A stretch of 64,000 nt of DNA from Hyphomicrobium sp. (lineage in GTDB: Bacteria > Pseudomonadota > Alphaproteobacteria > Rhizobiales > Hyphomicrobiaceae), in contig PERT01000001.1 of NCBI GenBank assembly GCA_002928955.1, forward strand, positions 124,001-188,000, read 5' to 3'. Shown here in pieces: positions 23,553-53,502 of the stretch (its first letter is position 1; each line of letters begins with the position of its first letter). A program made the position numbers and the translations under genes. The notes under the pieces are model-generated. The model made no database searches. It was not told the origin of the DNA and was given only the letters and a program-made list of their open reading frames with translations.

Positions 23553-23810
23553 CTAAAGCCCCAGCTCGATCTTGAGCCGCCGCAGCCGGGGGAGCGACAG
23601 CTGCGTCCCCATCTGCTCGTTGAACGCCCGCAGGTGCTTCTCGCCGACGTTGCCGTCCTCGCCGACGATCGACTTCAAGACGCCGACTGCCGCCTCGGCT
23701 CCGTCCGCAGATCGGATCGCCGATCGCCACGCTCGGGCCCGGTGGCCGGAGCCGGGCTCCCATTCCGTAGGGACCAGGGCTTCGCCCTGGACCCATTCTC
23801 TGGTCATCAC
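23553..23810 (-). CDS. Small hypothetical protein downstream of the first caspase gene
   Basis: An 85-residue basic protein of unknown function (VGVLKSIVGEDGNVGEKHLR; LSLPRLRRLKIELGL). It begins 41 bases after the stop of the caspase gene on the same strand and just beyond the end of the repeated VR flank, so it may be co-transcribed. No motif is recognised. Confidence 0.4.
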   Translation of the reverse strand: MMTREWVQGEALVPTEWEPGSGHRARAWRSAIRSADGAEAAVGVLKSIVGEDGNVGEKHLRAFNEQMGTQLSLPRLRRLKIELGL

Positions 23811-23830: not shown

Positions 23831-23997
23831 GTGCTCAGGACGTAAAGGAGCTAAGGGGTAGGATTTAACGTCCTCGCCAAACGGAAGCCGTGGATCCCGA
23901 TGCGGTGGTCCGGAGGGTCCCCGAGGCGGACCGCCGAGCGGAGGTGCTGTGGAGAGTTGCCCCAGGAACCGCCGCGAAGCACACGGGAGCAATCCTT
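23831..23997 (-). repeat. DGR-type variable repeat A (in caspase gene 23851-25530)
   Basis: Read on the minus strand, this block has a 36-nt 5' flank (23962-23997) identical to 29548-29583. A 24-codon variable stretch follows (23890-23961). The 3' flank then matches 29656-29705 for 50 nt, with one mismatch and eight more identical bases, running past the stop codon. All 23 differences from repeat B are in the 24-codon stretch: 11 at codon position 1, 8 at position 2 and 4 at position 3. Upstream of the block the two genes differ freely at synonymous sites. This is what adenine-directed mutagenic homing into NNY codons leaves. Confidence 0.85.
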
Positions 23998-25530
23998 CTC
24001 GTCTGGAGCTTGGGAGCCATCCGTTGGAGCGTTGGCATAGGTGGCCGCATAGCAGTCCTCGACCCATTCCCAAACGTTCCCGTGCATGTCGAAAAGACCG
24101 AAGGCGTTGGGTTTGAACGTGCCAACTTCGACTGTCTTCTGGGCGCTGCCAACTTTACCTTCGGAGAACTGCGCTTGTGTCGTTTTGATCGTCTCGCCGA
24201 AGCTGAATGCGGTCGTCGTGCCGCCGCGAGCGGCATACTCCCACTCGGCCTCGCTGAGCAGACGGTAGGGTGCCCCCGTCTTGCTCCTGATCCATCTGAC
24301 GTATGCCTGTGCGTCGTTCCACGACACGTTCATCACTGGACGCCGCCCGCGACCCCAGCCCTCGTCGCGCGGCTTATACGTGCAGCCGCCGTCGGCGACG
24401 CAGGCATCCCATTCCGCGAACGCTACTTCGTAGCGGCCCACAGCGAACGGCCGAGCGATCGTCACCCGGCGTTGCGGTCCTTCGTCCGGCCGACGGCTGA
24501 CGTCGCTTTCTGGTGATCCCATCAAGAAGCTGCCCGCCGGCACGACCACCATCTCCGGGCAACGGTGGCAGTCCGTGAACGTGTTGCCAATCTGGAGACA
24601 TTGCGTTGTGCCGAAAACCGCCGCCTCGATCCCAGAGCAGCCCGCTGGAGGTGTCACGATCCCGACCACCGGCTTGATGGGCTGGTGGAGGTCGGGTTTC
24701 GCGGGCGGTGCCGCCGCGGCAACCTGCGTCTCGGACTTGGCGGCAGCGAGAGGGGCGGATGCGCTTGCCGCCGCAAAATGAAAATCATACCGCCGCTTGT
24801 CGAGAAACTCCGGTGACTGCTTGGCGTCGGTTGCGGCTTCCACCTTTTGCGTCACCGTCCGAAATACCTGTCCGGCTTCGAGTCCCGGCTTCACGATTTC
24901 TTCGGCCAGAGCCTTGGCGTAAATGCTCTGGTCGACGGCGACGTTGCCCGGCTCGGTCGCATAGGCGACCAGCAGCCCGCGCTGCTCGCGGATCGGCGCG
25001 AAGCCCTTGAAGCCGAAGTCCTTGCCGTCGCGCTGCAGGGCCACGTTGCGGCAGGCGTCAAACACGACGAAGCTCATCTTGGCCGCGCCGGCCAGGGTGG
25101 CAGTGATCCGGTCCAGTCGCACGGCCATCAACGGCAATTGCGTCACATGGGTCAGCGGCGCCTCGGTGGGGATCAGGTAGTTTGCGCCGTCCGGCCGGTC
25201 CGCCGCGCCGTGCCCGCTGTAATAGAGAAAGCCGACCGCGTCGGGACCGGCCACGGCGAGGCGCTCCACGTGCTCGCCGATTGCGGCCAGAAGCGCGCCC
25301 TCGCTCCGGGTGTCGCGCACGACAGTGACCTTGAACCCGACTTTTTCCAGCGCCGCCTTGACCAGATCGCCATCGCGATGTGTGTTCGTCAGCTTCGCCC
25401 CTGGCTGCGTATAGCCCTGGTTGGCAATGACGAGCGCAATGCGCGGCTCCGCCGTGGCGCGCCCTGGCAGCACCAACAAAGCCCCCAGCACCAGACCACC
25501 GATCCAGCGTTGCCATCCGGCACGCAGCAT
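23851..25530 (-). CDS. Secreted caspase-like protein with variable FGE/C-type-lectin domain (A)
   Basis: A 559-residue protein. Residues 1-28 are a signal peptide (GGLVLGALLVLPGRATA). Residues 29-250 are a caspase/metacaspase-like (peptidase C14) domain with catalytic His107 in FLYYSGHGA and Cys160 in FVVFDACRN. A linker rich in Ala/Pro follows. Residues from about 324 form a formylglycine-generating-enzyme/C-type-lectin fold (CPEMVVVPAGSFLMGSPESD; YRLLSEAEWEYAARGG; DMHGNVWEWVEDC). It ends RVLRGGSW, a variable stretch and GFRLARTLNPTP. Such folds are common scaffolds for DGR variation, so a binding role is likelier than sulfatase activation. It is divergent from the trypsin gene, with a 113-base shared promoter region. 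Confidence 0.9.
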   Translation of the reverse strand: MLRAGWQRWIGGLVLGALLVLPGRATAEPRIALVIANQGYTQPGAKLTNTHRDGDLVKAALEKVGFKVTVVRDTRSEGALLAAIGEHVERLAVAGPDAVGFLYYSGHGAADRPDGANYLIPTEAPLTHVTQLPLMAVRLDRITATLAGAAKMSFVVFDACRNVALQRDGKDFGFKGFAPIREQRGLLVAYATEPGNVAVDQSIYAKALAEEIVKPGLEAGQVFRTVTQKVEAATDAKQSPEFLDKRRYDFHFAAASASAPLAAAKSETQVAAAAPPAKPDLHQPIKPVVGIVTPPAGCSGIEAAVFGTTQCLQIGNTFTDCHRCPEMVVVPAGSFLMGSPESDVSRRPDEGPQRRVTIARPFAVGRYEVAFAEWDACVADGGCTYKPRDEGWGRGRRPVMNVSWNDAQAYVRWIRSKTGAPYRLLSEAEWEYAARGGTTTAFSFGETIKTTQAQFSEGKVGSAQKTVEVGTFKPNAFGLFDMHGNVWEWVEDCYAATYANAPTDGSQAPDEKDCSRVLRGGSWGNSPQHLRSAVRLGDPPDHRIGIHGFRLARTLNPTP

Positions 25531-25643
25531 GAGCCACCGCTCTCTGTCCCGACCGGCATGTCTTAACACGGCAACCGTCGTGTGCTGAAGTCGGGATCGG
25601 AGTTTGATGTCGGATTTCGATGAGCTGTTGATTCGAGGTATTG

Positions 25644-27233
25644 ATGAATCGGACGGGAGCTTTCGCCACCGTGGTGATGGCCGCGATGGCACTCATCCTG
25701 CTGCCCGCCGCGGCGGAGGCGCAGGGCGCGTCATGCCGAGCCAAGCGCGGAAAAGTCGTCGGCGGCGAGCCGGCCAGCAGCGCGAACTGGCCTGGTCAGG
25801 CAGCGCTTCGGCTGCATGCCGCCCAGGCGCGCGTGTCGTTCTATTTCTGTGGCGGCACCGCGATCAGCGATCGTTGGGTTCTGACTGCCGCGCATTGCCT
25901 GCCCGATTTTCTGTCGAAGCTCACAGGGCCGGTGCGCGACGGCAAAGACAAAACGCACGAGGGACGGCTTGAAGTGATGCTTGGTGCCGACGATCTCACC
26001 ACGGCTTCCGCCGCCAACGCGATCGCGGTTGAGCGCGTGGTCATGCATCCCCGCTATCAGGCCGCCGTCGAAAAGGCGCTGGCGATCGCCGATGCAAAGC
26101 AGCGCCGCAAGGCGCTGGCCCTGATTGCTCCCACAGTCGGCGACGACATCGCGCTGCTCTATCTGGCCACGCCCTGGACGGGCGCGGTGGCCGAGCTGTC
26201 GCTCACGCCCTCGACCGATCCAGCCGCCGAGCCGCCCGCTCAGGTGCGCGTGTCAGGCTTCGGCACGACGGAGCACAACCTGCACAGCGAACAACTCGAA
26301 AAGATTGTCCGTGCCGATGGCCAGGGGGCGCTGTACGCCGGGTCCGCCAAGCTCTTGGAAACCGCGGTCGAGACGATCGCCACGCCGGTGTGCGCCAAGC
26401 GCTATGCCGGCAGCATGATCGGCTCGGGCCAAATCTGCGCCGGTCTCGAACTGGGCGGAAAGGACAGTTGCCAGGGCGACAGCGGCGGACCGCTGGTCGT
26501 GCCGGGCGCGCGCGGTTGTCCGCGGCAGATCGGCGTCGTGAACTGGGGCGAAGGGTGCGCCGAGGAGAAGGCCTACGGCGTCTACACGCGCGTGTCCCAC
26601 TACGCCGACTGGATCCAGAAGCAGACCGGACCGCTCAAGCCCCGCGCCCGTTCCGAAGGCGAGCGTGACGGCCGTGCGTTGACCCCCGAGCAACTCGACC
26701 AGAGCCTCGGTCAGCTCGATGCGCTGCTCGGCCCGGCGAGGGGCCGGGTCCGCATCGGCATCCGCGGCGGCAACCGCGTTCGGCTCGGCGACAAGGTCGT
26801 CTTCGACGCCGCAAGTGATATCGCCGGTCGGCTCGTGCTCATCGATGTCAACGCCGAAAACGAGGTGCTGCTGCTCTACCCCAACCAGTATGTGGCCGAG
26901 GCCGATATCGGTCGCATTGCGGTCGGCGCGCGGGTGGCGGTGCCGGGACCGGACTATCCGGGCTTCACGAGCTTTCAGGCGGTCGAGCCGGTCGGCAAAG
27001 GGCGGATCATTGCCCTGGTGTTGCCCGAGGATTTCGCGATCGAGCGCTTCATTGCTGATCGCGCGGTCGTCTCGAAGGGCTTTGTGCCGCGCAATGATCC
27101 GCCGAGCTATCTGATGCAACTCATTCGACAGATCGACATCGAGCTGGCGCGACGGTCGGCTGCCCGCGGAACCCGGGCTGACGAACTCGCCCGCTGGGGC
27201 TATGCTGTGGCCGAATACGAGATCGTGCGGTGA
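25644..27233 (+). CDS. Secreted trypsin-like serine protease with DUF4384 domain
   Basis: A 529-residue protein with a signal peptide (VVMAAMALILLPAAAEAQG). The trypsin domain spans residues 38-310 with the triad His84 (VLTAAHC), Asp168 (GDDIALLYL) and Ser280 (DSCQGDSGGPLVV). Residues 31-41 read CRAKRGKVVGG, a trypsinogen-like activation site, so it is probably made as a zymogen cleaved after Lys/Arg. The C-terminal region (about 365-480) matches DUF4384 (VRLGDKVVFDAASDIAGRLV; VLLLYPNQYVAEADI), a domain often seen with caspase-like or kinase modules. The ATG at 25644 is used; a TTG lies just before. Context with two caspases suggests a proteolytic relay. Confidence 0.9.
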   Translation: MNRTGAFATVVMAAMALILLPAAAEAQGASCRAKRGKVVGGEPASSANWPGQAALRLHAAQARVSFYFCGGTAISDRWVLTAAHCLPDFLSKLTGPVRDGKDKTHEGRLEVMLGADDLTTASAANAIAVERVVMHPRYQAAVEKALAIADAKQRRKALALIAPTVGDDIALLYLATPWTGAVAELSLTPSTDPAAEPPAQVRVSGFGTTEHNLHSEQLEKIVRADGQGALYAGSAKLLETAVETIATPVCAKRYAGSMIGSGQICAGLELGGKDSCQGDSGGPLVVPGARGCPRQIGVVNWGEGCAEEKAYGVYTRVSHYADWIQKQTGPLKPRARSEGERDGRALTPEQLDQSLGQLDALLGPARGRVRIGIRGGNRVRLGDKVVFDAASDIAGRLVLIDVNAENEVLLLYPNQYVAEADIGRIAVGARVAVPGPDYPGFTSFQAVEPVGKGRIIALVLPEDFAIERFIADRAVVSKGFVPRNDPPSYLMQLIRQIDIELARRSAARGTRADELARWGYAVAEYEIVR

Positions 27234-27834: not shown

Positions 27835-29694
27835 ATGCGGCGTGTTCTCGCGATCATACTGGCGGCGGGCAGTTTGCTCGCGGCGACTGTGTCCACAGCC
27901 CAAGAGCCGGCGCGCCTTGCGCTGCTGATCGGCAATAAGGGCTACAACGACAAGGTTGGACCACTGAAGAACCCGCATAACGACGTCAAGATTGTCGCCA
28001 ATGCGCTTCGCTCGATCGGCTTTAAAGGCGGCGACATCGTTGCCGTCACCGACCGCAAAAGATCGGAAATCCTTGTCGCGGTGCGCCAGTTCGCCAACCG
28101 ACTAGCGGCCGCGGGTCCGGCGGCTATCGGGTTTCTCTACTATTCCGGACACGGCGCGGCCGAGGGCGGCACGACCGTCAACTATCTCATTCCGGTCGAC
28201 GCAGGGGACCCAAACGACCCGGCCTTCTGGGACGAAGCCCTAAAGCTCGATGAGCTCACGACCCTGCTGCGTGACCGCGCCCCGCATGCCGCGCATTTCG
28301 TTGTCTTCGATGCCTGCCGCAACGAGTTGAAACTTCCGGACAAGACTTCAAGCAAAGGGTTCGCGGTCGTACCGACGCTGCGCGGTATGCACGTAGCTTT
28401 CGCCAGCGAATTCGGTCGAACGGCTTCCGATGTGGGAGCAACCAGCGGACCCTATGCAGCTGCGCTCGCAGCTGAACTGGTGAAGCCCGGCCTGAGCCAC
28501 CTGGACATGTTCCAGAACGTGAAGGAAGCGGTGTCTTCTGCCACCGGCGGAAAGCAGGTGCCGTGGGAGCTGAATGGCCTGTCGCAGCGCGTGCATTTAG
28601 CCGGTCTAGCGCCGTCGCTGCTTAGCGGCGCCGCCGACGTGGTGCGCGTCTGCCGCGAGGTGGAAACAATGACGAGCCTGTCGATGCTGGCCGTTCTGGA
28701 GCGCCAGCATGCCGGCACACCTTCGGCGGACTGCATCTCGGCCAGGATGGGTGAGTTGAAAGCGACGCAGGCCGCCGCCAAGGCCGCCGAAGCTCAGGCG
28801 AAAGCGGACGCCGAACGGCAGCGGCTCGCCATGCTGCAACAACAGGACGCCGAGACGAAGCGCGTGGAAGCGGAAACCGCACGCAAACGTGCCGAGGCGG
28901 CCAATCCGACGCAGCCTGGGCAGGTATTCCGCGACTGCGCCGACTGCCCCGAAATGGTCGTCGTGCCGGCGGGCAGCTTCATGATGGGCTCGCCGGCGAG
29001 CGAGAAGGGTCGCGAGGCCGACGAAGGACCGCAACGCCGGGTGACGATTACCAAGCCGCTTGCAGTCGGCAGATTCGAGGTGACGTGGGCCGAGTGGGAG
29101 TCCTGTGTAGCGGCAAAGGCCTGCGACAACGGACCGGTCGCTACGGCGGGCGGCGACCAGGGTTGGGGCAAGGGTAAGCGGCCGGTCATCAACGTTTCGT
29201 GGAACGACGCCAAGGCCTACGCTGGCTGGCTGTCGAAGAAGACTGGGCAGCCCTACCGCCTGCTGACCGAGGCCGAGTGGGAATATGCGGCCAGGGCCGG
29301 CACGACGACACCGTTTTCCTTCGGCGCAACCATCAACCCGGACCAAGCCAACTACGACGGGAACTACACATACGGCTCGGACACGAAGGGCAACTATCGT
29401 GGAAAGACCGTGGAGGTCGGCAGCCTGAACCAACCCAACGGATTTGGCCTTCATGACATGCACGGCAACGTATGGGAGTGGGTCGAAGACTGTTACGCCA
29501 ACAGCTACGCGAACGCGCCGACAAATGCCACGAAGGCACCGGATACGAAGGATTGCTCCCGTGTGCTTCGCGGCGGTTCCTGGAGCAATGGTCCTCAGCT
29601 CCTCCGCTCGGCTATCCGCGGCTGGCTCCTACCGGACTACCTCGGCAGGTACTTCGGCTTCCGTTTGGCGAGGACGTTAAATCCTACCCCTTAG
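27835..29694 (+). CDS. Secreted caspase-like protein with variable FGE/C-type-lectin domain (B)
   Basis: A 619-residue protein. It has a signal peptide (VLAIILAAGSLLAATVSTAQ) and a caspase-like domain (about 26-270) with His106 in FLYYSGHGA and Cys161 in FVVFDACRN. A charged coiled coil (about 305-355; EAQAKADAERQRLAMLQQQD) leads to an FGE/C-type-lectin domain (about 365-615) with EMVVVPAGSFMMGSPAS, YRLLTEAEWEYAARAG and LHDMHGNVWEWVEDCY. The C-terminus is RVLRGGSW, 24 variable codons, GFRLARTLNPTP. The plan is that of protein A, but the sequences are diverged except in the VR flanks. It is the fourth gene after the trypsin, so protease, DUF6883, DUF4926 and sensor are probably co-expressed. 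Confidence 0.9.
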   Translation: MRRVLAIILAAGSLLAATVSTAQEPARLALLIGNKGYNDKVGPLKNPHNDVKIVANALRSIGFKGGDIVAVTDRKRSEILVAVRQFANRLAAAGPAAIGFLYYSGHGAAEGGTTVNYLIPVDAGDPNDPAFWDEALKLDELTTLLRDRAPHAAHFVVFDACRNELKLPDKTSSKGFAVVPTLRGMHVAFASEFGRTASDVGATSGPYAAALAAELVKPGLSHLDMFQNVKEAVSSATGGKQVPWELNGLSQRVHLAGLAPSLLSGAADVVRVCREVETMTSLSMLAVLERQHAGTPSADCISARMGELKATQAAAKAAEAQAKADAERQRLAMLQQQDAETKRVEAETARKRAEAANPTQPGQVFRDCADCPEMVVVPAGSFMMGSPASEKGREADEGPQRRVTITKPLAVGRFEVTWAEWESCVAAKACDNGPVATAGGDQGWGKGKRPVINVSWNDAKAYAGWLSKKTGQPYRLLTEAEWEYAARAGTTTPFSFGATINPDQANYDGNYTYGSDTKGNYRGKTVEVGSLNQPNGFGLHDMHGNVWEWVEDCYANSYANAPTNATKAPDTKDCSRVLRGGSWSNGPQLLRSAIRGWLLPDYLGRYFGFRLARTLNPTP

Positions 29695-41790: not shown

Positions 41791-42048
41791 CTACGGTTCA
41801 CGGGCAAGTTTGGTCCGCTGCTATCCCGAAAGGCTGTCGCAAAGAATTCTCCGTGATCTGGGGCGGGATGCACCCTTCTGGCCCGCCTCTGCCATGTGAC
41901 TGGTGCGCCCCACGCGTGGCCCCGCTGCACTTTACAGCCCTGTGACCGGCTTTGACGTTGCCCCTCGCCACCTCCGTCACACCACGGTACAAATTCTCCT
42001 ATCAGATGCGGGTCGAGCCAGGATCGCAGCGTATTGTCGGGGAACCAG

Positions 42049-44709
42049 ATGGATCAGCGCGCACCGGGACTGGTTGAAGGGGGCGCGTCTGGCGCAGACG
42101 GTCGGGCCAGCGACCAGAAGGCAGCGCCCACCGCTACACCCCGCGATGAGGGCCTGCTCACCGGCTGGGAGCAAATCCAAGCCGACGTGCTCGGCTCCCG
42201 GCGCAGTGTGCAGCCGTTGGCGGGCTGGCTGCTCTCGGGCCTGCTCGGGCTCGTCGGTTGGTTGACTTTCGTCTATGCGCCGGGCGCGTTCGAGCGCGCC
42301 AAGCAGGTGCACGGGGCTGATCCGTCCGGAGTGATCACAGTCGAGGCCGGCTACATCACGATTATCACGGTCGCGCTCATCGCGCTGGCCGTCGCGTTCG
42401 AGCCGTTCCTGTCGCGGTTCCTAGGCAAGCAGCGCGACACTTGGCGCAAGGGCCTCGGCAGAAGCCATGCCGCAGTCAGGCTCCCGGTCACGGCGGTCGG
42501 CGCGGTGATCGGCTTCATCTGGCAGCTTCCTTCAGTTGTCCTCAGCCTCATCGACACTATCCTCGCCCGGCCCATCGCGTGGCTCGTCGGCGTGACGCAG
42601 GAAGGCTGGGGTGTCCGTTACACTTGGGGCGCAGTCGTCATACTCGCTTCCATTGCCGCCGGCCTCTACGCGCCAGCACCCTGGGGCCTCTACGGCGTCA
42701 TCGCGGGGCTCGTCGCAATCCTGGCCATCGTGCGCCGCTGGAGCTGGTCGGAAGCCGACCGCGAGACGTTCCTCGTCGAGCGCGGCATTCGCAAGGGCGC
42801 CATGCGCGTCGGCTTCAAGGAGGACCTGCGCGACGAGGCGCTGGTCGCCATCACTTTCCTGTTCGTGCTCATCCCCATCGGTCTCAGGCAAATCCAACTT
42901 GCGACCTGCGAGGTGGGAACCTGCGCGTTCACGCTTGAAGGTGGCGCGACGCTGCCGCCGGATGCGCTCGGCCAGTCCATCGCCTGGCTCGGCTTTTTCG
43001 GCGCGGAGCTGGCGAAGTCGGTGCCCTTCGTCGACTGGTCGGAGGTGTTCCACGTTGCCAACGACTCGCCCATCAAACCGCAAACCGCGGACGGTGCGCA
43101 GATCGTGTTCGCCATGCGCGCGGCGCTCGACCTCCTCTTGCTCGCTGCCGTGTTGCAAGCGGTGCAGATCGCCAGCCGGCTTCGCGACCAGTGGACAGCG
43201 TTCGGCGCGAGCCGCCTGCCGATCCTGGAGCCGCATACCGAGAAACGACTGTTCAAGAGCACCTGCGAGGCCATTGAGCCCGGTCTTGAACAGCACCCGA
43301 CGCAGCAGCACGCTATAGCCTCGTTCCCGGCCTACGAAGACACGCGGCTGAAGGAGGTCATTCAGGACCGCAGCGGTAAAATGCCGGTCGAGGCTCGCAA
43401 AGCCGCCCTCGCACTCCTCGCGAGTAAGCATGCGAATGAAGCGACAGACCAGTTCTTCACCGAGCAGGAGAAAGCCGAAAATTTGCCCGAAGTCTGCGAC
43501 TGGATCGTGAATGTTGCGACGGGCGTCACGCGCGAGCGCGATCCGGCTCACCACGCGGCGGACAGGGCGCGGCTCAAGGTGTTGTTAGAGGATCGCTTCG
43601 AGGCGATGCCGATCCGGGCTGCCGCTGCGCGTCGTCTCGCCCGGATGCCGCACGATGCAACAACGACGGCACTTCTCCAGGAGCGGCTGGCAGCACCGAA
43701 CGAGAGCGTCGAGGTTCGGGCTGCGTCCGCCCTGGCACTCGCGAGGCACAGGCCAAAGGAGGCGGCTGGCGAGTTGGAAAACTTGGCCGGCACTTTCGGC
43801 GGCGATCTGCCCCTCGACCGCATCATGGCGGCGATGGCAACCGCTCACGCCCTCGCCCGTTGCGCACCCGGCACTGACGCCAAAGCCATCGCCAGCGCCT
43901 TCGCCGAGCCCTTGCGCGAGCTTGCTGCCGTTGCCGCCTGCATCCAGGCGGAGCCGATGGACATCGACGCTGCCAAGGCGCGCGAGCCTAGCACCGCCCT
44001 CAACCAGATGGTCAGAATCGCGCCAGGCGAAGGGGACTTCAAGCCGACGTTCACGCTCGGCTCCGGCGATGACGACGATCTGGCGTTTTCCGAGGAGAAG
44101 CCGCAGAAGCCCATCACCATGGCGCGGCCCTACGCCATCGGGCGCTATACGGTGACGCAGGAAGAGTACCTGATCTTCAGCGTTGCAACAGGTCTGAAAC
44201 CCCTGCCGCACGCCTCCAACCGGCGCTGGCCGGCCATCGAGGTCAACTGGCGGGATGCCATGGCCTATTGCCGCTGGCTGGAGGCCGTAACCGGCGAGGC
44301 TTATCGCTTACCGAGCGAGGTGGAATGGGAGTACGCCTGTCGGGCCGGAACCAAGACACGCTGGTCGTGGGGCAACGAGTGGGATCAGACCAAGGCTGCG
44401 ACTGTCGAGACGCGGTCTGGTAAAGGACCGATGGACGTCGAAAGCTTCGACCCGAACGACTGGGGCCTTTGGCAGATGCATGGCAACGTCGTCGAGTGGT
44501 GCGGCGATCCGTATCATCTGAACCACGAGGGGCGGCCTCAGGGGCAAGCAACATGGGACGCAGGCGGAGAATATGGTCGCCGTGTGGTCCGCGGCGGGTC
44601 CTGGTACAACTCATCCCAGAACTCTCGCTCGGCCTGTCGCAACTGGATCGCATCCGGCAACCGGGGCATCAATCTCGGCTTTCGGTTGGCCAGAACGTTA
44701 AATCCTTGA
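42049..44709 (+). CDS. Membrane HEAT-repeat protein with variable FGE/C-type-lectin domain (C)
   Basis: An 886-residue protein. About six membrane segments fill the first 370 residues (WLLSGLLGLVGWLTFVYA; ITIITVALIALAVAFEPFL; LVAITFLFVLIPIGLRQI; ALDLLLLAAVLQAVQIA). HEAT-like helical repeats follow (IRAAAARRLARMPHDATTTA; VEVRAASALALARHRPKEAA). A C-terminal FGE/C-type-lectin domain (YAIGRYTVTQEEYLIFSVAT; YRLPSEVEWEYACRAGTK; WQMHGNVVEWCGDPY) ends RVVRGGSW, 24 codons, GFRLARTLNP. The tail matches the caspase proteins in layout but not in nucleotide sequence. ATG 42049 is preceded by GGGGAACC; a TTG at 42034 is an alternative. It is the DGR target next to the Avd fragment. Confidence 0.85.
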   Translation: MDQRAPGLVEGGASGADGRASDQKAAPTATPRDEGLLTGWEQIQADVLGSRRSVQPLAGWLLSGLLGLVGWLTFVYAPGAFERAKQVHGADPSGVITVEAGYITIITVALIALAVAFEPFLSRFLGKQRDTWRKGLGRSHAAVRLPVTAVGAVIGFIWQLPSVVLSLIDTILARPIAWLVGVTQEGWGVRYTWGAVVILASIAAGLYAPAPWGLYGVIAGLVAILAIVRRWSWSEADRETFLVERGIRKGAMRVGFKEDLRDEALVAITFLFVLIPIGLRQIQLATCEVGTCAFTLEGGATLPPDALGQSIAWLGFFGAELAKSVPFVDWSEVFHVANDSPIKPQTADGAQIVFAMRAALDLLLLAAVLQAVQIASRLRDQWTAFGASRLPILEPHTEKRLFKSTCEAIEPGLEQHPTQQHAIASFPAYEDTRLKEVIQDRSGKMPVEARKAALALLASKHANEATDQFFTEQEKAENLPEVCDWIVNVATGVTRERDPAHHAADRARLKVLLEDRFEAMPIRAAAARRLARMPHDATTTALLQERLAAPNESVEVRAASALALARHRPKEAAGELENLAGTFGGDLPLDRIMAAMATAHALARCAPGTDAKAIASAFAEPLRELAAVAACIQAEPMDIDAAKAREPSTALNQMVRIAPGEGDFKPTFTLGSGDDDDLAFSEEKPQKPITMARPYAIGRYTVTQEEYLIFSVATGLKPLPHASNRRWPAIEVNWRDAMAYCRWLEAVTGEAYRLPSEVEWEYACRAGTKTRWSWGNEWDQTKAATVETRSGKGPMDVESFDPNDWGLWQMHGNVVEWCGDPYHLNHEGRPQGQATWDAGGEYGRRVVRGGSWYNSSQNSRSACRNWIASGNRGINLGFRLARTLNP
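44605..44676 (+). repeat. Candidate DGR variable segment C
   Basis: Exactly 24 codons between TGG (44602-44604) and GGC TTT (44677-44682), the same count as in repeats A and B. Asn codons AAC/AAT remain at segment codons 2, 6, 13, 19 and 23. Flanking codons encode the same residues as A and B but use different bases, so this copy would belong to a different template. Confidence 0.6.
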
Positions 44710-44734
44710 TCTTTAAATCCTTACTTCTTGGGGT

Positions 44735-44754
44735 CCAGGGGCGTTAGCCCCTGG
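44735..44754 (+). other. 8-bp stem, 4-nt loop hairpin downstream of VR-C
   Basis: CCAGGGGC and GCCCCTGG form a perfect stem around GTTA, 26 bases after the stop codon. A hairpin or cruciform of this size just after the variable repeat is a known requirement in the Bordetella phage DGR, though that loop has a GRNA pattern. No T tract follows, so a terminator is less likely. Confidence 0.6.
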
Positions 44755-44770
44755 TCGCTACGGAATCGCC

Positions 44771-44911
44771 ATGGCTGACAACGCGAAAAAGACCGGCACG
44801 GCGGTCGAAGCACACTTCCAGTTTCTGATGTGGCTTGTCCCCACCGTCGAGAAGTTCCCGCGCAGCCAAAAGTTCCTGCTCGGCGACCGCATCGACAGTC
44901 TACGTCTCTAA
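44771..44911 (+). pseudogene. avd: Truncated Avd (DGR accessory variability determinant)
   Basis: A 46-residue frame beginning MADNAKKTGTAVEAHFQFLM then WLVPTVEKFPRSQKFLLGDR. The segment FLMWLVPTVEKFPRSQKFLLGDRI-like is the conserved first helix pair of bAvd proteins, which bind the DGR reverse transcriptase. Full proteins run to roughly 115-130 residues as a four-helix bundle. Here homology stops at Ile41 and five unrelated residues lead to TAA. The junction at about 44895-44900 abuts a convergent unrelated gene, so the rest of the DGR cassette was removed or never acquired. Confidence 0.85.
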
Positions 44912-45271
44912 TCCGAGCGTTAAATCGTCATCGTCGCCGAAGTCCATGTCGCCGCCGTCGGTCAGTATCCCCTCGTGGAGGACCACGGCCACGCGCCCGA
45001 AGCGCACCTTGCGCAAGGGCTTCAGATCGTCGGCAGCGATCGGGTCGCCCATGGTGAGCCAGGGGTTCTCGACGTCAGGCTGAAGCTGGCAGCGGAACAC
45101 CGCCCGAAGCTCCCGGTCGAGGATGCAGTCGGCGGGGCCGATAGCGTCGAAGGTGTTCGGCCAGACGCTCGGGCCGACGGCCAGGACCCCGGGCGGCAGC
45201 TCAGCCCAGTGCCACGTAGCGTCGATCCGGATCGCGATACGGCCCGCGTAGAGGTCAAGTCTGCCGTACAT
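44900..45271 (-). CDS. Hypothetical phage-type protein at element right end
   Basis: A 123-residue acidic protein (MYGRLDLYAGRIAIRIDATW; LPPGVLAVGPSVWPNTFDAI; VRFGRVAVVLHEGILTDGGD), of unknown function. The ATG at 45271 has CAGGAGCTTTCCCCA upstream, a clear ribosome-binding site. The frame stays open to 45580 upstream (an alternative start at 45466), so the true start is uncertain. Its stop overlaps the Avd fragment's end by 12 bases. The 294 bases up to the attR candidate hold no other gene I can support. Confidence 0.5.
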   Translation of the reverse strand: MYGRLDLYAGRIAIRIDATWHWAELPPGVLAVGPSVWPNTFDAIGPADCILDRELRAVFRCQLQPDVENPWLTMGDPIAADDLKPLRKVRFGRVAVVLHEGILTDGGDMDFGDDDDLTLGLET

Positions 45272-45565
45272 TGGGGAAAGCTCCTGACGTTTCTCGACCG
45301 TGGTCGAGCGCATGCCCGTCGTGGGTGCCACCGTGCGAGGAGATCGTCGGTTGGCCAGCGCGGGGTGCGCCGTCGTCATGCTGGCGGGGAGATAGGCGGG
45401 GAACGGCAGGGCGTCAAGAACGGCTTGACGAGTGGCCTCGAACGCCGAGTGGTCGGCTGTAGGCATCTGGAGCCGCGTGGATACACCGCACCCATTGGCC
45501 CCTAAAACGGCCCTAAGACCTGAAAAATGGCAGAAACATAAGCAATAACAACGCCATTGAGTAGA

Positions 45566-45579
45566 CACCCCCTCCGCCA
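45566..45579 (+). repeat. Candidate attR core
   Basis: CACCCCCTCCGCCA, identical to the last 14 bases of tRNA-Ser at 10929-10942 and in the same orientation. The next bases differ (TAAACTATT versus CCGACCCCT). From 45580 to 45861 there is no gene; the stretch includes an ACACG/CGTGT hairpin near 45594-45609. Confidence 0.6.
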
Positions 45580-45861
45580 TAAACTATTGATTCTACACGC
45601 TTTTTCGTGTTTTCTGGTGGGGTCTGAACTCTGTCCGTAGTTCCGGCGGGTTGCGCCGGCGCCAACTGCGCTGTGCGACGCAGAGACCACTTTGGTGCCG
45701 TTGTCGCGGCGCTGCACCGTCCAAAGTCTCCTATCGGGTTTCCAGTGGTACCGTTGTCGGCGGGTGCGGCTTGAATTTGGTCGGACTGATGCGGCGGGAA
45801 ATGGCGACCCCGCCGTCGCGGTTCGACGGAGGGTGTCAGTAATCCGATGTCGCCGTCGCGG

Positions 45862-47604
45862 TCAGTCGAAGCCGAGGTGGCGGCACTGGTCTGACCATGC
45901 CGATTCGAATTGGCCCGCGCCCATGAGCTTGATGGCGCTGAAGTCGGCGGGCTGCCGCCCCTGGACGATGGCCTTGGTGATCTCCGGGGCCAGGAAGCTC
46001 AGCCTGAGGACGCGCGAGAAGTAGGAACGGCTGACGCCTGCCTGGGTTGCCAACTCGGTGATCGTCAGGCCAGCGCCCGTCAAGGCCAACTCGTTGAAGC
46101 GGTGCGCCATCGCGATCAGCCGCAGCAGGCTGCGGTCCGACCGTGGGGTCGGCTCCGCTCCGAGCGTGCCCTGGATCAGCAGCTTCGTCTCCATGCCGGT
46201 CCGCCGCAGCCGGGCCGGCACCGAGAGGACCTGTGTCGGTCCCTCCGGCTTCTCCGGCAGCCGCCGGATGTCGAGGTCGGGCTTCACGACGGCAGGTAGC
46301 ACAGAGGGGCGGACAGAGACGTCGACCGCATCTGGTCGGATGTCCACCCGCGCGACAATTGCATGCAGGATGGTCCGCTTCGCAGACGCCGGCAGGGCCG
46401 GCCAGCGTCGCGCGAGGTCGGCGGCGTTCTCGATCAGCGATTTCTTCATCGCGACGGTCGTGGAGCCGGCGACTTCGAGCATGACGGTCTCGTCCCGCAG
46501 CAGCACACAAATGCGATCCTCGACGATGCTTTCGAGATCGGCGGCGGGGACGCGGCACGCCGCTTCCGACGCCTGCGGCCGGCCGCGTTTGATCAGCGAC
46601 TGGCTGACGTAGTAGCGGTACCTCGTGCACTTCTTGTTGGCGTGCGTCGGTGACATGCGCTCGCCGCTGTCATCATAAACGAGGCCGGCCAGCAGGCTTG
46701 GCGCCGCGGCCGTCGAACGGGTCACGCGCTCGACGCGATTCTCGGAGAGGGCGGATTGGACCTCATTCCACAACGCTTCGTCGACGATCGGCTCGTGCAG
46801 CCCGGGATAGCTCGTGTCCTTGTGCACGATTTCACCACGGTAGATGCGGTTCTGTAGCATCAGGTAGAGCGCGCCGCGGGCGATCGGCACGCCGCCCTTT
46901 GCATGTCCGAGGCGGTCGAGCCGGGCCTTGCTCACGATGCCATTTTCGTCGAGATCCTCCTTGAGGGCTAGCACCGATTTCAGCTCAGCGTACCGGCGGA
47001 AGATGTGACGGACGGTTTCGGCTTCGGATTGATTGACAACCAGCTTGCGATCCTGGACGTCGTAGCCGAGCGGTAGCATGCCGCCCATCCACATGCCCTT
47101 CTGCTTCGAGGCGGCGATCTTGTCGCGGATGCGTTCGCCGGTGACCTCCCGCTCGAACTGCGCGAACGACAAGAGCATGTTGAGCGTCAGCCGGCCCATC
47201 GACGTGGTCGTGTTGAATTGCTGCGTCACCGAGACGAACGACACGCCCTTGGCATCGAACGCGTCGACGATCTTAGCGAAGTCGTTGAGCGAGCGGGTCA
47301 GGCGGTCGACTTTGTAGACGACGACCGTGTCGACGCGACCGACCCCGATGTCGGCCAACAGCCGCTGTAGGGCGGGCCGCTCCATCGTCCCGCCCGAGAT
47401 GCCGCCATCATCATACATGTCGGGTAGAGCAACCCAGCCCGCACTTTTCTGACTCTTGATGTAGGCCTCGCACGCCTCGCGCTGCGCATCGAGCGAATTG
47501 AACTCCTGCTCGAGCCCGTCCTCCGACGACTTGCGCGTGTAGATGGCGCAGCGGACGACCGCTGCGCCGTTGGGTCGAGGGGCGTCCCGCTTCCTACTCA
47601 TCAT
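45862..47604 (-). CDS. Large serine recombinase
   Basis: A 580-residue large serine recombinase. The catalytic domain starts AAVVRCAIYTRKSSEDGLEQ with the nucleophile Ser in YTRKSSEDG, and has VDTVVVYKVDRLTRSLNDF and LNMLLSFAQFEREVTGERIR (quoted in parts). A recombinase domain and a zinc-ribbon-type region (MSPTHANKKCTRYRYYVSQS) follow, and the C-terminus has a helix-turn-helix (LTITELATQAGVSRSYFSRV). It could integrate or excise a separate element at 45.6-48.5 kb or beyond. It overlaps the DUF2924 gene by 11 bases. Confidence 0.93.
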   Translation of the reverse strand: MMSRKRDAPRPNGAAVVRCAIYTRKSSEDGLEQEFNSLDAQREACEAYIKSQKSAGWVALPDMYDDGGISGGTMERPALQRLLADIGVGRVDTVVVYKVDRLTRSLNDFAKIVDAFDAKGVSFVSVTQQFNTTTSMGRLTLNMLLSFAQFEREVTGERIRDKIAASKQKGMWMGGMLPLGYDVQDRKLVVNQSEAETVRHIFRRYAELKSVLALKEDLDENGIVSKARLDRLGHAKGGVPIARGALYLMLQNRIYRGEIVHKDTSYPGLHEPIVDEALWNEVQSALSENRVERVTRSTAAAPSLLAGLVYDDSGERMSPTHANKKCTRYRYYVSQSLIKRGRPQASEAACRVPAADLESIVEDRICVLLRDETVMLEVAGSTTVAMKKSLIENAADLARRWPALPASAKRTILHAIVARVDIRPDAVDVSVRPSVLPAVVKPDLDIRRLPEKPEGPTQVLSVPARLRRTGMETKLLIQGTLGAEPTPRSDRSLLRLIAMAHRFNELALTGAGLTITELATQAGVSRSYFSRVLRLSFLAPEITKAIVQGRQPADFSAIKLMGAGQFESAWSDQCRHLGFD

Positions 47605-48133
47605 CGTGGCCTTCGGTTCCCGCAGCGGCGACAGATTTGGTCGTGGCGCCGGTAAGTCCGAAGAATCGCGGGCCCGACCAATGCGTGCCGGTCATCTCGC
47701 GCGCGATCACTGACAGCGAGCGCCACGTCGCGCCCCGCCACTGGAATCCGTCCTCGACGACCAGGACCTCGTGCGTTTCCCCACCCCAGGCCCGGACCAG
47801 TCGCGCGCCCGGCTTCAGGGTGACCTTGCGCGCCTTCGTGAGATCCGACTTCGTGGCCATCGTCCGCGCCAACTCGTCGAGTTGGCGCTTGGTCGCGGCA
47901 CTGAGCCCACCCAGCACACGCTCCTGCAGCTTCCAGGCGACGCCGAGTTCAAGCAGATCCCGCCGGAGCAACTTGGGAGGGTGCGAACGATAGAGCCGGC
48001 GCCATTCCGCGCGGAGCGCGGGCGCGTCCATCTCCGACAGGGCGCCCAACTGGGCATGCAGCGAGTCGTGGTCGGCGCGCTTGCGCGCGCCGACGATCGA
48101 ATGGGAGACTTCCGAGGGATACAGATCGGACAT
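47594..48133 (-). CDS. DUF2924 family protein
   Basis: A 179-residue protein with the DUF2924 layout: LRAEWRRLYRSHPPKLLRRD, LLELGVAWKLQERVLGGLS, then LKPGARLVRAWGGETHEVLV and FQWRGATWRSLSVIAREMTG. Its function is unknown, but the family is typically encoded just upstream of large serine recombinases in alphaproteobacterial elements, as here. It probably acts with the recombinase, for example as a DNA-binding partner (inference). Confidence 0.88.
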   Translation of the reverse strand: MSDLYPSEVSHSIVGARKRADHDSLHAQLGALSEMDAPALRAEWRRLYRSHPPKLLRRDLLELGVAWKLQERVLGGLSAATKRQLDELARTMATKSDLTKARKVTLKPGARLVRAWGGETHEVLVVEDGFQWRGATWRSLSVIAREMTGTHWSGPRFFGLTGATTKSVAAAGTEGHDDE

Positions 48134-48136
48134 GGC

Positions 48137-48505
48137 TCAGCCCCTCGCTCGCGATTGCGCGACCGGCTTCGCCATGCCGTCGAGCCGATAGCGCCGGTTG
48201 CCGTTGTCGTCCCGCGACGAGACGAGCGTGAGACCGAGCTTCTTCTTGACGGTGCCGGACAGGAAGCCGCGGACGCTGTGCGGCTGCCATTCCGTCGCCG
48301 CGACCAGCTCCGCGAGCGTTGCGCCATCGCGGCGTGCGAGTAGATCGAGGCACCGTTGTTGCTTGCTCGCGATCGCGGGCTCAATTGCGGGATCGGCTGC
48401 CTTCGGGTGGCGCGTGCTCTTGGCGGCAACCGGCTTCTCGGCCGGCGTCGTGCGTTTCGTGGGCGCGTTGCCGGGCTCGAGGGACTTGCGGCGCTTCGCG
48501 GTCAT
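48137..48505 (-). CDS. DUF3489 family protein
   Basis: A 122-residue basic protein with a Lys/Pro-rich linker and a winged-helix-like C-terminal domain (KQQRCLDLLARRDGATLAEL; ATEWQPHSVRGFLSGTVKKK; GLTLVSSRDDNGNRRYRL), the DUF3489 pattern. It completes the DUF3489-DUF2924-recombinase trio on one strand. ATG 48505 has CTGGAGCCCACACT upstream. Confidence 0.85.
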   Translation of the reverse strand: MTAKRRKSLEPGNAPTKRTTPAEKPVAAKSTRHPKAADPAIEPAIASKQQRCLDLLARRDGATLAELVAATEWQPHSVRGFLSGTVKKKLGLTLVSSRDDNGNRRYRLDGMAKPVAQSRARG

Positions 48506-48936: not shown

Positions 48937-51900
48937 ATGCGTTTCAGTACCGCCGCCAGACTTGCGTTTCTGGCCTTCGTGGTCGTCGTCACTCCGAGCA
49001 ATGTGTTGGCGCAGGGCCGGACTATGAAAGAGGACGCACTAGGCAGCGATGTTCAGAAGCTGGATGCTGAGGTCAGTCGTCTGCGACAACTTGGTCGTGC
49101 TGCAGAGGCGCTCCCGCTCGCCGAGTATGCTGTCGAGACCGCCGAGAAACAGTATGGCAGCGATCACACAGAGGTTGCCGCAGCTCTGCTCGTGCTGTGC
49201 GAAGTTCTGTCGGGCCTAGGTCGCGCGTCCGAGTGTGAGGCGCTGGAGCAGCGTGCGCTCGCCATTCGCGAACGCACGCTTGGTTCGGATCATCCACTGA
49301 CGGCAGAGGCGCTTGTAGCCCTTGCCGGCACATATAGCCAATTACAACGCTACGACAAAGAAGAGGCTCTACTCGAACGCGCTTTGGCAATCTACCAGCG
49401 CGCGGAAGGAGCGGCGAGCGTAAGATCAGGCGACGTGCTGGGGTATCTGGCTCGATTGCGCGAGACTCAAGCCCGTCATTTGGAGGCCGAGACAGCCTAT
49501 CGACGAGCCTTCGAAATTCGCGAGGCAGCGTTCGGCCCCGAGGATCCCCAGATTGTCGAAGCATTGCAGTGGCGCGCACTCCACCTGAAGAAGCTCGGTC
49601 GACTGGACGAAGCCCGCATCATGTTCGAACGGTGCCTCCGAATACTCGAGCAAGCGAAGGGACCCGATTCGGCTCCGGTTAGGTTAGCACTATACCATCT
49701 TGCAGAGATTCTCCGAAGTCTTGGTCGATACGTTGAGGCGGACCCGTTCGCGGCGCGATCGGTGGCCATCTCTGAAAAGCTGCGAGGCAAGGAACATCCG
49801 GAGGTCGCCGTCGGGCTCAACGTCGTAGGGATGTTGCATCATCACCAAGCGCGTTACGTCGAGGCCGACCGAGCCTATCGGCGCGCACTCTCTATATTGG
49901 AGGCAGCACGCGGCCCCGATCATTTATCGCTTGCCTCGGTGCTTTCGAATGCAGCTGAACTCCGGGCCAAGCAAGGACAATATAAAGACGCGGAGTACAT
50001 GGCTCGGCGCGCCGTTCAAATTGCTGAGAATGCGAAAGCCGAGGAAATCAGCCTCGCAGCGCGCCTATCGTCGCTCGCGCGAGTCTATGTCGAGGCCGAA
50101 CGAGATTTTGAGGCGGAGCCCATCCTGCGACGATGTATCGAGTTGTTTGGACGTGTACGCGGCCCGGACCATCACGAAGTGGCGACGGCGTTGAACGAGC
50201 TGAGCCTCGTTCTAAGACGAACGGCGCGCCCGAAAGACGCAGAGATCGCATCCCGCCGGGCGCTCGACATCTACGAAGCGACGCTCGGAGCGACACATGT
50301 CAAAACCGCGACAGCTCTCGGTGCTCTGGCGGCCACGCTATCGGAAACAGGTCGCTTCAACGAGGCCGAAGCATTATATAAGCGCAGTATTGCAATTTTC
50401 GAAGCGACACTCGGTCGGAAACACCCGTTCTGGGCTACGGCAATGAACAATCTGGCCTGGTTCTATTCGCATAGTGATCGATTGAAGGAAGCTGAGATTG
50501 CGGTCGAGACCAGCATGGCTGTACGCGATCCGAACCCGCGAGAAGTTTTGGCCCCACTCAGCATTCTGTCCGCAATATATTTGAAACAGGGCCGGCTCCA
50601 CGAAGCCGAGCCGCTTATGAAGCGCGCCATCCAGCTGGCGGAAAGCGCGCACGGTACAGAGAGCGCAAGTGTAGCGGCCCATCTCAACAACCTTGCCAAA
50701 TTCTATATAGATGTGGAGAGATTTTCTGAGGCGGAACCGCTGCAACGACGCGCCCTCCACCTCTGGGAAAACATCTTTGGCAGCGCTAATCTATACGTGG
50801 CAGTCGCTCTGGGCAACCTGGCTGGAATTCTTGAAGGCCTTGGAAAGCACTCTGAGGCACTTGCGGCGGACGAGCGCGCACTTGCCGTCGCGCTCGCTGC
50901 CGTGGGGGATGCACATCCAGATGTTGGTATGCGTCTCAACAATCTTGCTGAACGCGATCGCAAGGCGGGCAACTTCCACGAGGCGGAGCAACGATATTTG
51001 AAGGCGATCGATAAATACCAACGTGCCTATGGGCCTGTGCACACTGAGATTGCACGATCACTGAGCAATCTCGCGCTTCTCTATCTGGAGGCGGGCCGTC
51101 ACTCTGATGCAGAGATTTTCTTGGATCGAGCGATACGCATGTTTGAGGTCGCACTCGGGCCGGAGCATCCGGAGGTGGCCTATAGCCACAACATTGCGGC
51201 TGAGCTGCATGTGGCAGCCAAGCGTTGGGACGCTGCGCTCGACCATTCTCGTCGGGGTGTAGCGATTCTATCGAGCCGAGCTGACGGCACACAAATGCAT
51301 GTCGAGCGACTGACGACTGGATCGAAGGAGAAAAATCAACGAAGCCGGGATGTGCTCATAAGATTTGTTCTGATTTCGCAAATTGTCGCCGCCGAGAACC
51401 CTCAGGTGCGCCCGGCGCTTGCTCATGAGTCGTTCACCGCAGCGCAAAGCGCATTGCAATCGGAGGTTTCCGCGGCGCTGTCACAGATGGCTCTTCGAGG
51501 TGCAATGCGTGATATTGGATCGCAGCAACTTATTCGCCGGCGTCAAGATATTGTGTCGGAGTGGAAACAGCTCGATGCACGTCAGCTTAAAGCATTTTCG
51601 CAACCGGCGAGCCATCGAAATGCAGACACGGAGGCCGAGTTGCGAGAGCGACTGAGAGTCATCTCGGGAGAAGTGGCCGAAATCGACGCGCGAATAGCAA
51701 TGGAGCTGCCGGCCTATTCCTCGCTGACAACTCCGAAAACTGTGTCCGTCGAGGACGCGCAGAACGAACTCAACCCCAATGAAGCACTAGTGCTGTTCCT
51801 GGATACGCCCAAGGGGCGTTTGCTACCAGAGACGACGTTTGTTTGGATAGTGACGAAGGGAGAGGTGCGCTGGATCGCAGCGCCGGCTGGCACACCGACA

Positions 51901-53502
51901 CTCAAGCGTGAGGTGGCAGCATTGCGCTGTGGTCTTGATGCGACGGCATGGCATGGCGAAGGCGCCAAACGCTGCGCCGATCACTTGAATCTGCCGGTCG
52001 GCGTAGCTCCGGGCGAGGGCGATTCCCTCCCCTTCGACGCCGCACGCGCACATGCGCTCTACAACAGCCTGCTCGGCGAAGCAGCCGATCTCATCAAGGG
52101 CAAGCACCTGCTGATCGTGCCCTCCGGGCCGCTCACCACGCTGCCGTTCCATGTTCTGGTGACGTCGTTGCCAGTGGGCGTCGAGGCTGGCGCGATCCCG
52201 CGCAGGGTTGGTCGGCTGGGCGCCAAGTTGGGCCCTCTATCGGACGATGATCGAATGGCGTTGCCGGCCGGAACCGCTGGCGGCGTGAGGGTCGTGAAGC
52301 CAGTTCCGGGCGGACCGGCCGAAGCCGCCGGGCTGCGAGCAGGGGATCTCTTCATCATGGTCGATGCCCGGGGTTTTCTGACCGTGCCTGAGGCCGTCGC
52401 AGCCGTTCAAGCAGCTGGCGCCGATCGCACCGTCTCGTTGGCACTGGTGCGCGACGGCCAGCGCATTGATCTGCCTGTCACTCTTACTGCGGGCACCGTG
52501 ACGGACTGGAAGCCGTTGTTCCTAGACGCCTCGAACGCACCGCAGGTCAAATGGCTCGGGCAGGAGAACGCGATCACCGTACTTCCCTCCGTCGCCTCGC
52601 TGAAGGCTCTTCGCCGCATCGGAAAGCCGAGCGCGGCGCCGAAGCCGATGATCGGGTTTGCCAATCCGTTGCTCGACGGCAATCAGGCGCATCCCAATCC
52701 CAAGTACCGCGAGTACTTCAAGCAGCAGGCGCAGACGGCGCGGGCCCAGACTGGTTGCGCGACCTCTTCAAAGACGCGCACGGCAGCGCTGCGCATGGTG
52801 TCGCGCTCGCTGGATACCGCCGCCGTGGCTGGTGGCGCGCTCGCCAATCTCGACCATCTGCGCGTGCAGGCTCCGCTTCCGGAGACGGCCGACGAGGTGT
52901 GCGACGTGGTGCGCGCCATCGGTGGCAGCGCGGAGGAAATGCGGATCGGCGCGCGGGCGACCGAGACCGAGGTCAAGCGGCTCTCGGTATCAGGAGATCT
53001 CGCCAAGTATCGGATCCTGCACTTCGCCACCCACGGCACGCTGGCGGGCCAGCTCAAGGGCACGCGCGAGCCGGGGCTCATTCTGACCCCGCCCGCGACG
53101 GCAACCGAGGATGACGACGGCTATCTCTCTGGCAGCGAGATCGCGGCCCTCAAGCTGGATGCCGACTGGGTGATCCTGTCGGCCTGCAATACCGCCGGCG
53201 GCGCTGGTGAGGGCGAGGCAGCGGAGGCGCTGTCGGGCCTCGCGCGCGTGTTCTTCTATGCAGGAGCCCGCGCGCTGCTCGCCTCGCACTGGGAGGTCGA
53301 CAGTGACGCGGCGGTGAAGCTCGTGACCGGTGCAATGCGCGAGATGACCCACGACAAGAGCATCGGCCGCGCCGAGGCCATGCGCCGCGCCATGCTCGCC
53401 GTGATGGCCGACACGTCGCGGCCAAAGGACTGGGTGCCGGCTTGGCACCCGTCCGTCTGGGCACCGTTCGTTGTCGTGGGCGAGGGTGGCGCAGGGAGGT
53501 AG
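48937..53502 (+). CDS. Giant secreted TPR-PDZ-CHAT protein (caspase-family peptidase)
   Basis: A 1521-residue protein. It has a signal peptide (LAFLAFVVVVTPSNVLAQG), then about 17 kinesin-light-chain-type TPR repeats of 42 residues to about residue 780 (units like EALYKRSIAIFEATLGRKHP). After a helical linker, a CHAT domain begins near 950 (EALVLFLDTPKGRLLPETTF). A PDZ domain (about 1090-1190; VVKPVPGGPAEAAGLRAGDL) interrupts it. CHAT catalysis is marked by His1366 (HFATHGTL) and Cys1417 (ILSACNTAGG). CHAT proteases act in conflict systems, where TPRs sense a partner. The TPR half has looser, less GC-rich codons than the CHAT half, which suggests a chimera. Confidence 0.92.
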   Translation: MRFSTAARLAFLAFVVVVTPSNVLAQGRTMKEDALGSDVQKLDAEVSRLRQLGRAAEALPLAEYAVETAEKQYGSDHTEVAAALLVLCEVLSGLGRASECEALEQRALAIRERTLGSDHPLTAEALVALAGTYSQLQRYDKEEALLERALAIYQRAEGAASVRSGDVLGYLARLRETQARHLEAETAYRRAFEIREAAFGPEDPQIVEALQWRALHLKKLGRLDEARIMFERCLRILEQAKGPDSAPVRLALYHLAEILRSLGRYVEADPFAARSVAISEKLRGKEHPEVAVGLNVVGMLHHHQARYVEADRAYRRALSILEAARGPDHLSLASVLSNAAELRAKQGQYKDAEYMARRAVQIAENAKAEEISLAARLSSLARVYVEAERDFEAEPILRRCIELFGRVRGPDHHEVATALNELSLVLRRTARPKDAEIASRRALDIYEATLGATHVKTATALGALAATLSETGRFNEAEALYKRSIAIFEATLGRKHPFWATAMNNLAWFYSHSDRLKEAEIAVETSMAVRDPNPREVLAPLSILSAIYLKQGRLHEAEPLMKRAIQLAESAHGTESASVAAHLNNLAKFYIDVERFSEAEPLQRRALHLWENIFGSANLYVAVALGNLAGILEGLGKHSEALAADERALAVALAAVGDAHPDVGMRLNNLAERDRKAGNFHEAEQRYLKAIDKYQRAYGPVHTEIARSLSNLALLYLEAGRHSDAEIFLDRAIRMFEVALGPEHPEVAYSHNIAAELHVAAKRWDAALDHSRRGVAILSSRADGTQMHVERLTTGSKEKNQRSRDVLIRFVLISQIVAAENPQVRPALAHESFTAAQSALQSEVSAALSQMALRGAMRDIGSQQLIRRRQDIVSEWKQLDARQLKAFSQPASHRNADTEAELRERLRVISGEVAEIDARIAMELPAYSSLTTPKTVSVEDAQNELNPNEALVLFLDTPKGRLLPETTFVWIVTKGEVRWIAAPAGTPTLKREVAALRCGLDATAWHGEGAKRCADHLNLPVGVAPGEGDSLPFDAARAHALYNSLLGEAADLIKGKHLLIVPSGPLTTLPFHVLVTSLPVGVEAGAIPRRVGRLGAKLGPLSDDDRMALPAGTAGGVRVVKPVPGGPAEAAGLRAGDLFIMVDARGFLTVPEAVAAVQAAGADRTVSLALVRDGQRIDLPVTLTAGTVTDWKPLFLDASNAPQVKWLGQENAITVLPSVASLKALRRIGKPSAAPKPMIGFANPLLDGNQAHPNPKYREYFKQQAQTARAQTGCATSSKTRTAALRMVSRSLDTAAVAGGALANLDHLRVQAPLPETADEVCDVVRAIGGSAEEMRIGARATETEVKRLSVSGDLAKYRILHFATHGTLAGQLKGTREPGLILTPPATATEDDDGYLSGSEIAALKLDADWVILSACNTAGGAGEGEAAEALSGLARVFFYAGARALLASHWEVDSDAAVKLVTGAMREMTHDKSIGRAEAMRRAMLAVMADTSRPKDWVPAWHPSVWAPFVVVGEGGAGR

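Follow-up and report, generated by a model that had tools for sequence, protein, structure and literature searches.

Stranded targets of diversity-generating retroelements (DGRs) are already known as such. Isolates of Treponema denticola carry leftover targets from which the reverse transcriptase (RT) and the template repeat (TR) are gone, according to the available part of the published account (PMC4891356). In Thiohalocapsa PB-PSB1, RT or TR has been replaced or interrupted by mobile DNA, and mixed populations occur, as the accessible sections of that report describe (PMC10907252). FGE domains have been linked to diversifying conflict systems (PMC7159879, in the portion available), and the DGR of the Bordetella phage BPP-1 requires a hairpin at its target (PMC3240598, likewise an excerpt). 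In the intact form, the literature mechanism holds that the RT with its partner Avd would copy template RNA, making errors at adenines. The cDNA would then replace the variable repeat (VR) with which the target gene ends, and the hairpin behind the gene would mark the target site.

Here we describe a locus in a Hyphomicrobium genome that is very likely, to judge from its sequence, the 5′ remnant of a chromosomal DGR truncated at its 3′ side. The window is the whole stretch of 64,000 nucleotides that was analyzed; other genomes are designated G, contigs C, and loci L.

Target C and the cassette remnant behind it

The open reading frame (ORF) of target C spans 42034-44709 and encodes 886 amino acids counted from the ATG at 42049. 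The first-pass annotation had described it as a membrane HEAT/lectin gene, the third target, that ends in the same 24-codon layout. The lectin-like part of this description held, since the C terminus is a domain of the FGE/C-type-lectin type (Pfam FGE-sulfatase). HEAT was matched only weakly (E, 0.0068; 17.1 bits against a cutoff of 27.7). The arrangement of variable codons is not diagnostic on its own for this target, because a control FGE gene proved equally biased (see below). The FGE domain of target C is 44% identical to that of G044, 38% to those of G012 and G029, 41% to that of target A, and 43% to that of target B; given identities of 38 to 44%, none of these stands out as the direct counterpart of target C.

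The conserved tail behind VR-C differs from that of G044 at one base within the first 21. Downstream of the variable repeat stands a perfect hairpin, as had been claimed (Table 1). Among the 63,939 stretches of 61 nt in the window, 379 (0.6%) contain a perfect stem of at least 8 bp with a loop of 3 to 5 nt. As single-stranded DNA, the segment 44725-44765 folds better than its own shuffles (z, −3.44).

Behind the hairpin, a frame of 46 amino acids (44771-44911) had been read as the first 40 or so residues of Avd. This reading was confirmed. The frame matched the NCBIfam model NF033474 (DivGenRetAVD) with an E value of 2.9e-5 (24.3 bits; the full-length cutoff is 80), and it was 80% identical to a profile of three relatives across 44 columns. 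With a 40-residue query, we found matches in four of 149 genomes, the window's own included: in the own genome, G044 (85% identity over 40 residues), G012 (68%), and G029 (65%). The frame thus scored above background in the Avd-specific profile, although the Pfam bAvd model alone gave an E value of only 0.13; the full-length Avd proteins of the three relatives were above the cutoff in both models.

At the DNA level, the target C region matched G044 over 44654-44893 (79% identity; E, 9.3e-49), so that the 5′ end of a cassette gene adjoins the target, and it matched G012 over 44600-44859 (72%). What remains of avd is its first 41 codons, a third of the gene. The stop codon of the frame (44909-44911) lies inside foreign sequence, and the GC content shows no visible shift across the break at 44893. 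A switch to other sequence had been placed at about 44895-44900; the switch exists, 2 to 7 bases before that position. The unrelated convergent gene that had been noted after it was found as an ORF at 44900-45580 on the minus strand. A plasmid search with a 541-base DNA query across the break gave no match.

Table 1. Positions of the target genes, the cassette remnant, and the sequence beyond it (window coordinates)
Feature	Position	Strand	Basis or remark
Target B, caspase-FGE protein with VR-B	23851..25692	−	Tail 23866-23886
Hairpin downstream of target B (stem of 7 bp, GAA loop)	23774..23790	−	Hairpin comparison
Target A, caspase-FGE protein with VR-A	27835..29694	+	Tail 29659-29679; hairpin not intact
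Target C gene, C-terminal FGE-sulfatase (lectin-like) domain	42049..44709	+	Pfam FGE-sulfatase, E 5.1e-45
VR-C, former variable repeat, 3′ end of target C	about 44582-44679	+	Alignment with VRs and TRs of relatives
Conserved tail behind VR-C, candidate initiation-of-homing region	44680..44708	+	Comparison with G044, tail-pattern search
Perfect 8-bp hairpin behind target C, 4-nt loop GTTA	44735..44754	+	Same place in G012 and G044
avd, first 41 codons	44771..44893	+	NF033474 match, G044 identity, profile match
Breakpoint, end of homology to intact cassettes	44893..44894		DNA match and alignment with G044
Orphan gene of 188 aa, counting the stop, in the place that the rest of avd takes in relatives	44900..45466	−	No match in other genomes
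Serine recombinase and DUF2924 module	45571..48210	−	Pfam; DNA match to G053

The orphan gene beyond the break had no match in any of 148 other genomes, nor among viral contigs, plasmids, and phages. The recombinase module that follows is 79% identical in DNA to G053 over 45571-48210. The own genome shares its left edge (45566-45574) at a second place, as do G053, G082, G062, G051, and G002. This shared edge lies about 680 bases past the break, which is therefore not the edge of the module. A simple insertion of the recombinase element into avd, with the RT and the remainder of avd beyond the element, is not supported, both on this ground and because the genome has neither an RT match nor a second match to the first 40 Avd residues. 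The second place in the own genome is on contig C59 (6563-7333; L067), a partial copy of the module's left end with 79% identity. An ORF beside this copy carries what we take to be a Fic-like motif.

Adenine differences and hairpins among the targets

Targets A and B stand alone in the window, and the tail behind the variable region is common to A, B, and C. Compared in steps of 50 codons, genes A and B are 40 to 77% identical in DNA, and their last 31 codons are 80% identical. We took the columns where at least five of seven relatives' templates agree, with the VR/TR-like pair of L080 excluded. VR-A and VR-B differ from each other at 17 of 25 adenine columns versus 3 of 73 others (P = 2e-10). 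Against the relatives' templates, the corresponding counts were 17/25 versus 10/73 and 17/25 versus 8/73, so that the differences of both repeats are adenine specific. The A-to-B pattern is what overwriting from a common template would leave. For comparison, six of the relatives' seven VR/TR pairs have one to four non-adenine mismatches; the seventh (L082) has 14 of 94 and is perhaps not a cognate pair.

VR-C differed from the relatives' templates at 11 of 25 adenine columns versus 13 of 72 others (P = 0.012), and at 11/25 versus 10/67 (P = 0.005) in a second alignment with six templates, but a control FGE gene shows an equal bias. As controls, we compared two FGE genes of the own genome that have no DGR signs, on contigs 8 and 85, with the templates (FGE genes of contigs 84 and 39 were left out). 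In the six-template alignment, the gene on contig 8 differed at 16/25 versus 18/67 positions (P = 0.0013) and the one on contig 85 at 16/25 versus 26/60 (P = 0.07). Because the gene on contig 8 is no less biased than VR-C, a bias toward adenines relative to foreign templates has no diagnostic value for target C, and we rejected it as proof for VR-C. The case for target C therefore rests on the tail, the hairpin, and Avd. We concluded that at least two lectin-like genes of the window are former DGR targets and that, very probably, all three are.

We compared nine hairpins, those of VR-B, VR-C, G012, G029, G006, G015, and G043 and two of G044; G053, contigs C2 and C237 of G029, and loci L074 to L082 stood outside the count. 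These nine have seven different stems, in which 62 of 63 innermost pairs are kept although the letters of the stem vary; as the hairpins were chosen for a visible stem, this count is no measure of how often the structure is retained. The loop is GTA, GAA, or GCA in seven of nine, TAT in G015, and GTTA in VR-C. By eye, we saw no intact stem for target A, G036, G048, or G004.

Intact and broken cassettes in other genomes

In G012, target, hairpin, Avd, and RT stand in a row, and the template lies within the end of the RT frame. Between the VR and TR of this cassette, differences fall on 12 of 33 template adenines, against 4 of 101 other positions. The order target, hairpin, Avd, RT recurs in G044, whose contig of 12,429 bases starts inside the target and showed no VR/TR repeat of at least 40 bases. 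The claim that target, hairpin, and Avd form the normal order, with RT and template to follow, thus agrees with G012 in full and with G044 as far as the RT. Both genomes resemble the window locus in target, tail, hairpin, and the start of Avd, and they differ from it in that the full Avd and the RT continue, as does the template in G012. In G029, a TIR-nSTAND1-FGE target and a transposase-like ORF are followed by template, Avd, and RT.

Scanning genome contigs with these three Avd proteins yielded 11 loci, among which G044, G029, and G012 themselves reappear. By position, an RVT_1 match lies just behind Avd in 10 of the 11 (for L075 and L078, coordinates alone identified the contig), which bears out the expectation that an RT follows this frame in relatives. 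The exception is L079, from a member of the Binatia, where Avd is full length and the RT frame, judged by eye, loses resemblance after about 130 residues. Viral contigs searched with Avd profiles held no relative.

With one mismatch allowed, the tail pattern occurs at 13 places in nine of the 149 genomes, again with the own genome included; 12 are exact, and the one in G004 is mismatched. The reversed control pattern gave three hits. An RT of the cassette type (at least 60% identity to that of G044) is present in G044, G012, G029, G055, and G034, with an end piece in G053; a 25-residue RT piece at a contig end in G045 was set aside. Seven of the nine tail genomes are without a cassette-type RT, namely, the own genome, G043, G006, G036, G015, G048, and G004. 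Among these seven, G036 is 88% and G004 78% complete; RTs of 28 to 31% identity occur in G006 and G036.

Several cassettes are broken in other ways. In G053, an avd stub, the end of the RT, and a template are retained around an unrelated ORF. At this locus (L126; contig C9, 1225-1385 and 3328-3490), the tail, the hairpin region, and the first 16 avd codons stand behind both VR and TR. Both stubs end at a common point before CTAG and then diverge; the duplication may perhaps have come from recombination or insertion elements. G034 (L125; contig C12, 3543-4412) has an RT that lacks its first third and a template-like end, by eye the complement of the relic in the window. No Avd-like ORF of at least 110 amino acids lies upstream of this RT in 7,001 bases, and no neighboring Avd or target was seen among the ORFs listed. 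The breaks in G053, G034, and the Binatia genome are differently placed, which indicates repeated breakage of cassettes at varying points.

On contig C237 of G029 (L029), an FGE target (about 1070-1200) is followed 350 bases on by an adenine-rich, template-like repeat (about 1490-1620), both recognized by eye. No RT was found near this pair in the stretch read, and the pair would need an RT in trans. Several of the seven tail genomes without a cassette-type RT keep an intact hairpin with a covarying stem. Stranded targets might on this basis be a still competent reservoir that the return of a cassette RT and template would re-arm, with breakage and reacquisition forming a cycle and no dead end; we regard this idea as speculative and rather improbable.

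Origin of the probable relic and its likeness to known systems

The assembly that holds the window is a draft of 114 contigs and is 98% complete. We found no RVT_1 match in it by a search that recovers the cassette RTs of G012, G029, and G044, and the RT of G044 as a query likewise matched nothing in this genome. The same holds for RVT_1 in the genus members G001, G002, and G003 (98, 76, and 54% complete). Across the whole genome, an exact template-type pattern matched at 10 places; two are VR-B and VR-C, and none of the other eight is template-like (one read in context and seven judged by the matched letters, so that a template with a changed start could escape). Two longer template patterns had no match in the window. 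A match on contig C52 was rejected as a template, being by eye an ordinary coding sequence without an adenine-rich repeat. Neither a DGR-clade RT nor a template repeat was thus found in the own assembly. In the window, Rfam reported tRNA only, and PADLOC gave only weak TPR and caspase matches. A search for family PF22296 was uninformative, as it matched neither the own genome nor any of 14 controls.

At the site in the window, everything from Avd codon 42 onward is absent. With no Avd past codon 41 and no RT or template found in the assembly, the three FGE targets should be frozen at their last variant, and we consider them probably inert. Diversification could instead continue in trans through an RT and template missing from the assembly, or the locus could be intact in other strains. 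An RT could sit in a gap of the draft, and for Thiohalocapsa the available part of that work describes activity in trans and the coexistence of broken with intact variants (PMC10907252). However, the own genome has no RVT_1 match of any kind, the 98%-complete G001 has none either, the template pattern was not found in the own genome, and the longer patterns are absent from the window. We consider this reading unlikely.

The claim of a DGR origin is well supported, whereas loss of the cassette at exactly this place is the part that we infer, since a target with an Avd stub could be copied in and the stub of G053 exists in two copies. It may be that the cassette was never complete here and that target, tail, hairpin, and avd stub were copied in from an intact locus. 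The doubled stub of G053, with its common end point behind VR and TR, and the solitary targets A and B would fit such an event. Against it, the RT end and template near the G053 stubs mark these as parts of a broken cassette, and loss in place explains 41 avd codons in reading order equally well. We judge copying unlikely.

An assembly chimera at 44893 is very improbable: the gene after the junction is an orphan, but the junction lies inside a 211,931-base contig without a visible GC shift, and the own genome contains another, partial copy of the recombinase module that follows. That the Avd frame and hairpin resemble a cassette by chance behind an ordinary FGE gene is scarcely credible, for although the own genome holds FGE genes without DGR signs and Pfam bAvd alone is not significant, the region is 79% identical in DNA and 85% in protein to an intact cassette whose elements stand in the same order, and the NCBIfam Avd model matches (E, 2.9e-5).

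Genes for a trypsin-like protein (25641-27233), a TPR-CHAT protein (48937-53502), and a deaminase-domain protein (54183-55796) are found among the three targets and suggest that the region is a conflict-system island. From the caspase, trypsin, and CHAT neighbors, the targets may be sensors of a conflict system. A terminase-like ORF at 31661-34633 with Hint and LAGLIDADG domains has the form of an intein-like insertion in a phage gene.

The remnant that we favor as the reading of this locus preserves, in legible form, the loss of a targeted hypermutation machine whose targets persisted. Relatives with intact or differently broken cassettes are available, so that one can follow what becomes of targets once diversification is lost. 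The locus resembles that of phage BPP-1 in having a GC-rich stem of 7 to 10 bp shortly downstream of the variable repeat (PMC3240598, as excerpted). Phage loops of the BPP-1 type have 4 nt with the consensus GRNA in that source; the loop of VR-C is GTTA. The loops of VR-B and most relatives examined are three-base GNA, unlike the phage consensus, and VR-C is the exception.

The window is like Thiohalocapsa PB-PSB1 in having putative lectin-fold targets of probable conflict systems, several per genome, and in the disruption of its cassette; there, mobile DNA replaced or interrupted RT or TR. Thiohalocapsa keeps other DGR loci with RT, and most of its targets vary, as far as the accessible text states (PMC10907252), whereas here there is no RT match. 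As in Treponema denticola, where persisting VR targets include a former core target that once adjoined the cassette, targets have outlasted their machinery. Unlike what the available part of the Treponema report describes (PMC4891356), an avd stub and a hairpin remain here, which allows the breakpoint to be placed to the base, and the hosts are unrelated alphaproteobacteria.
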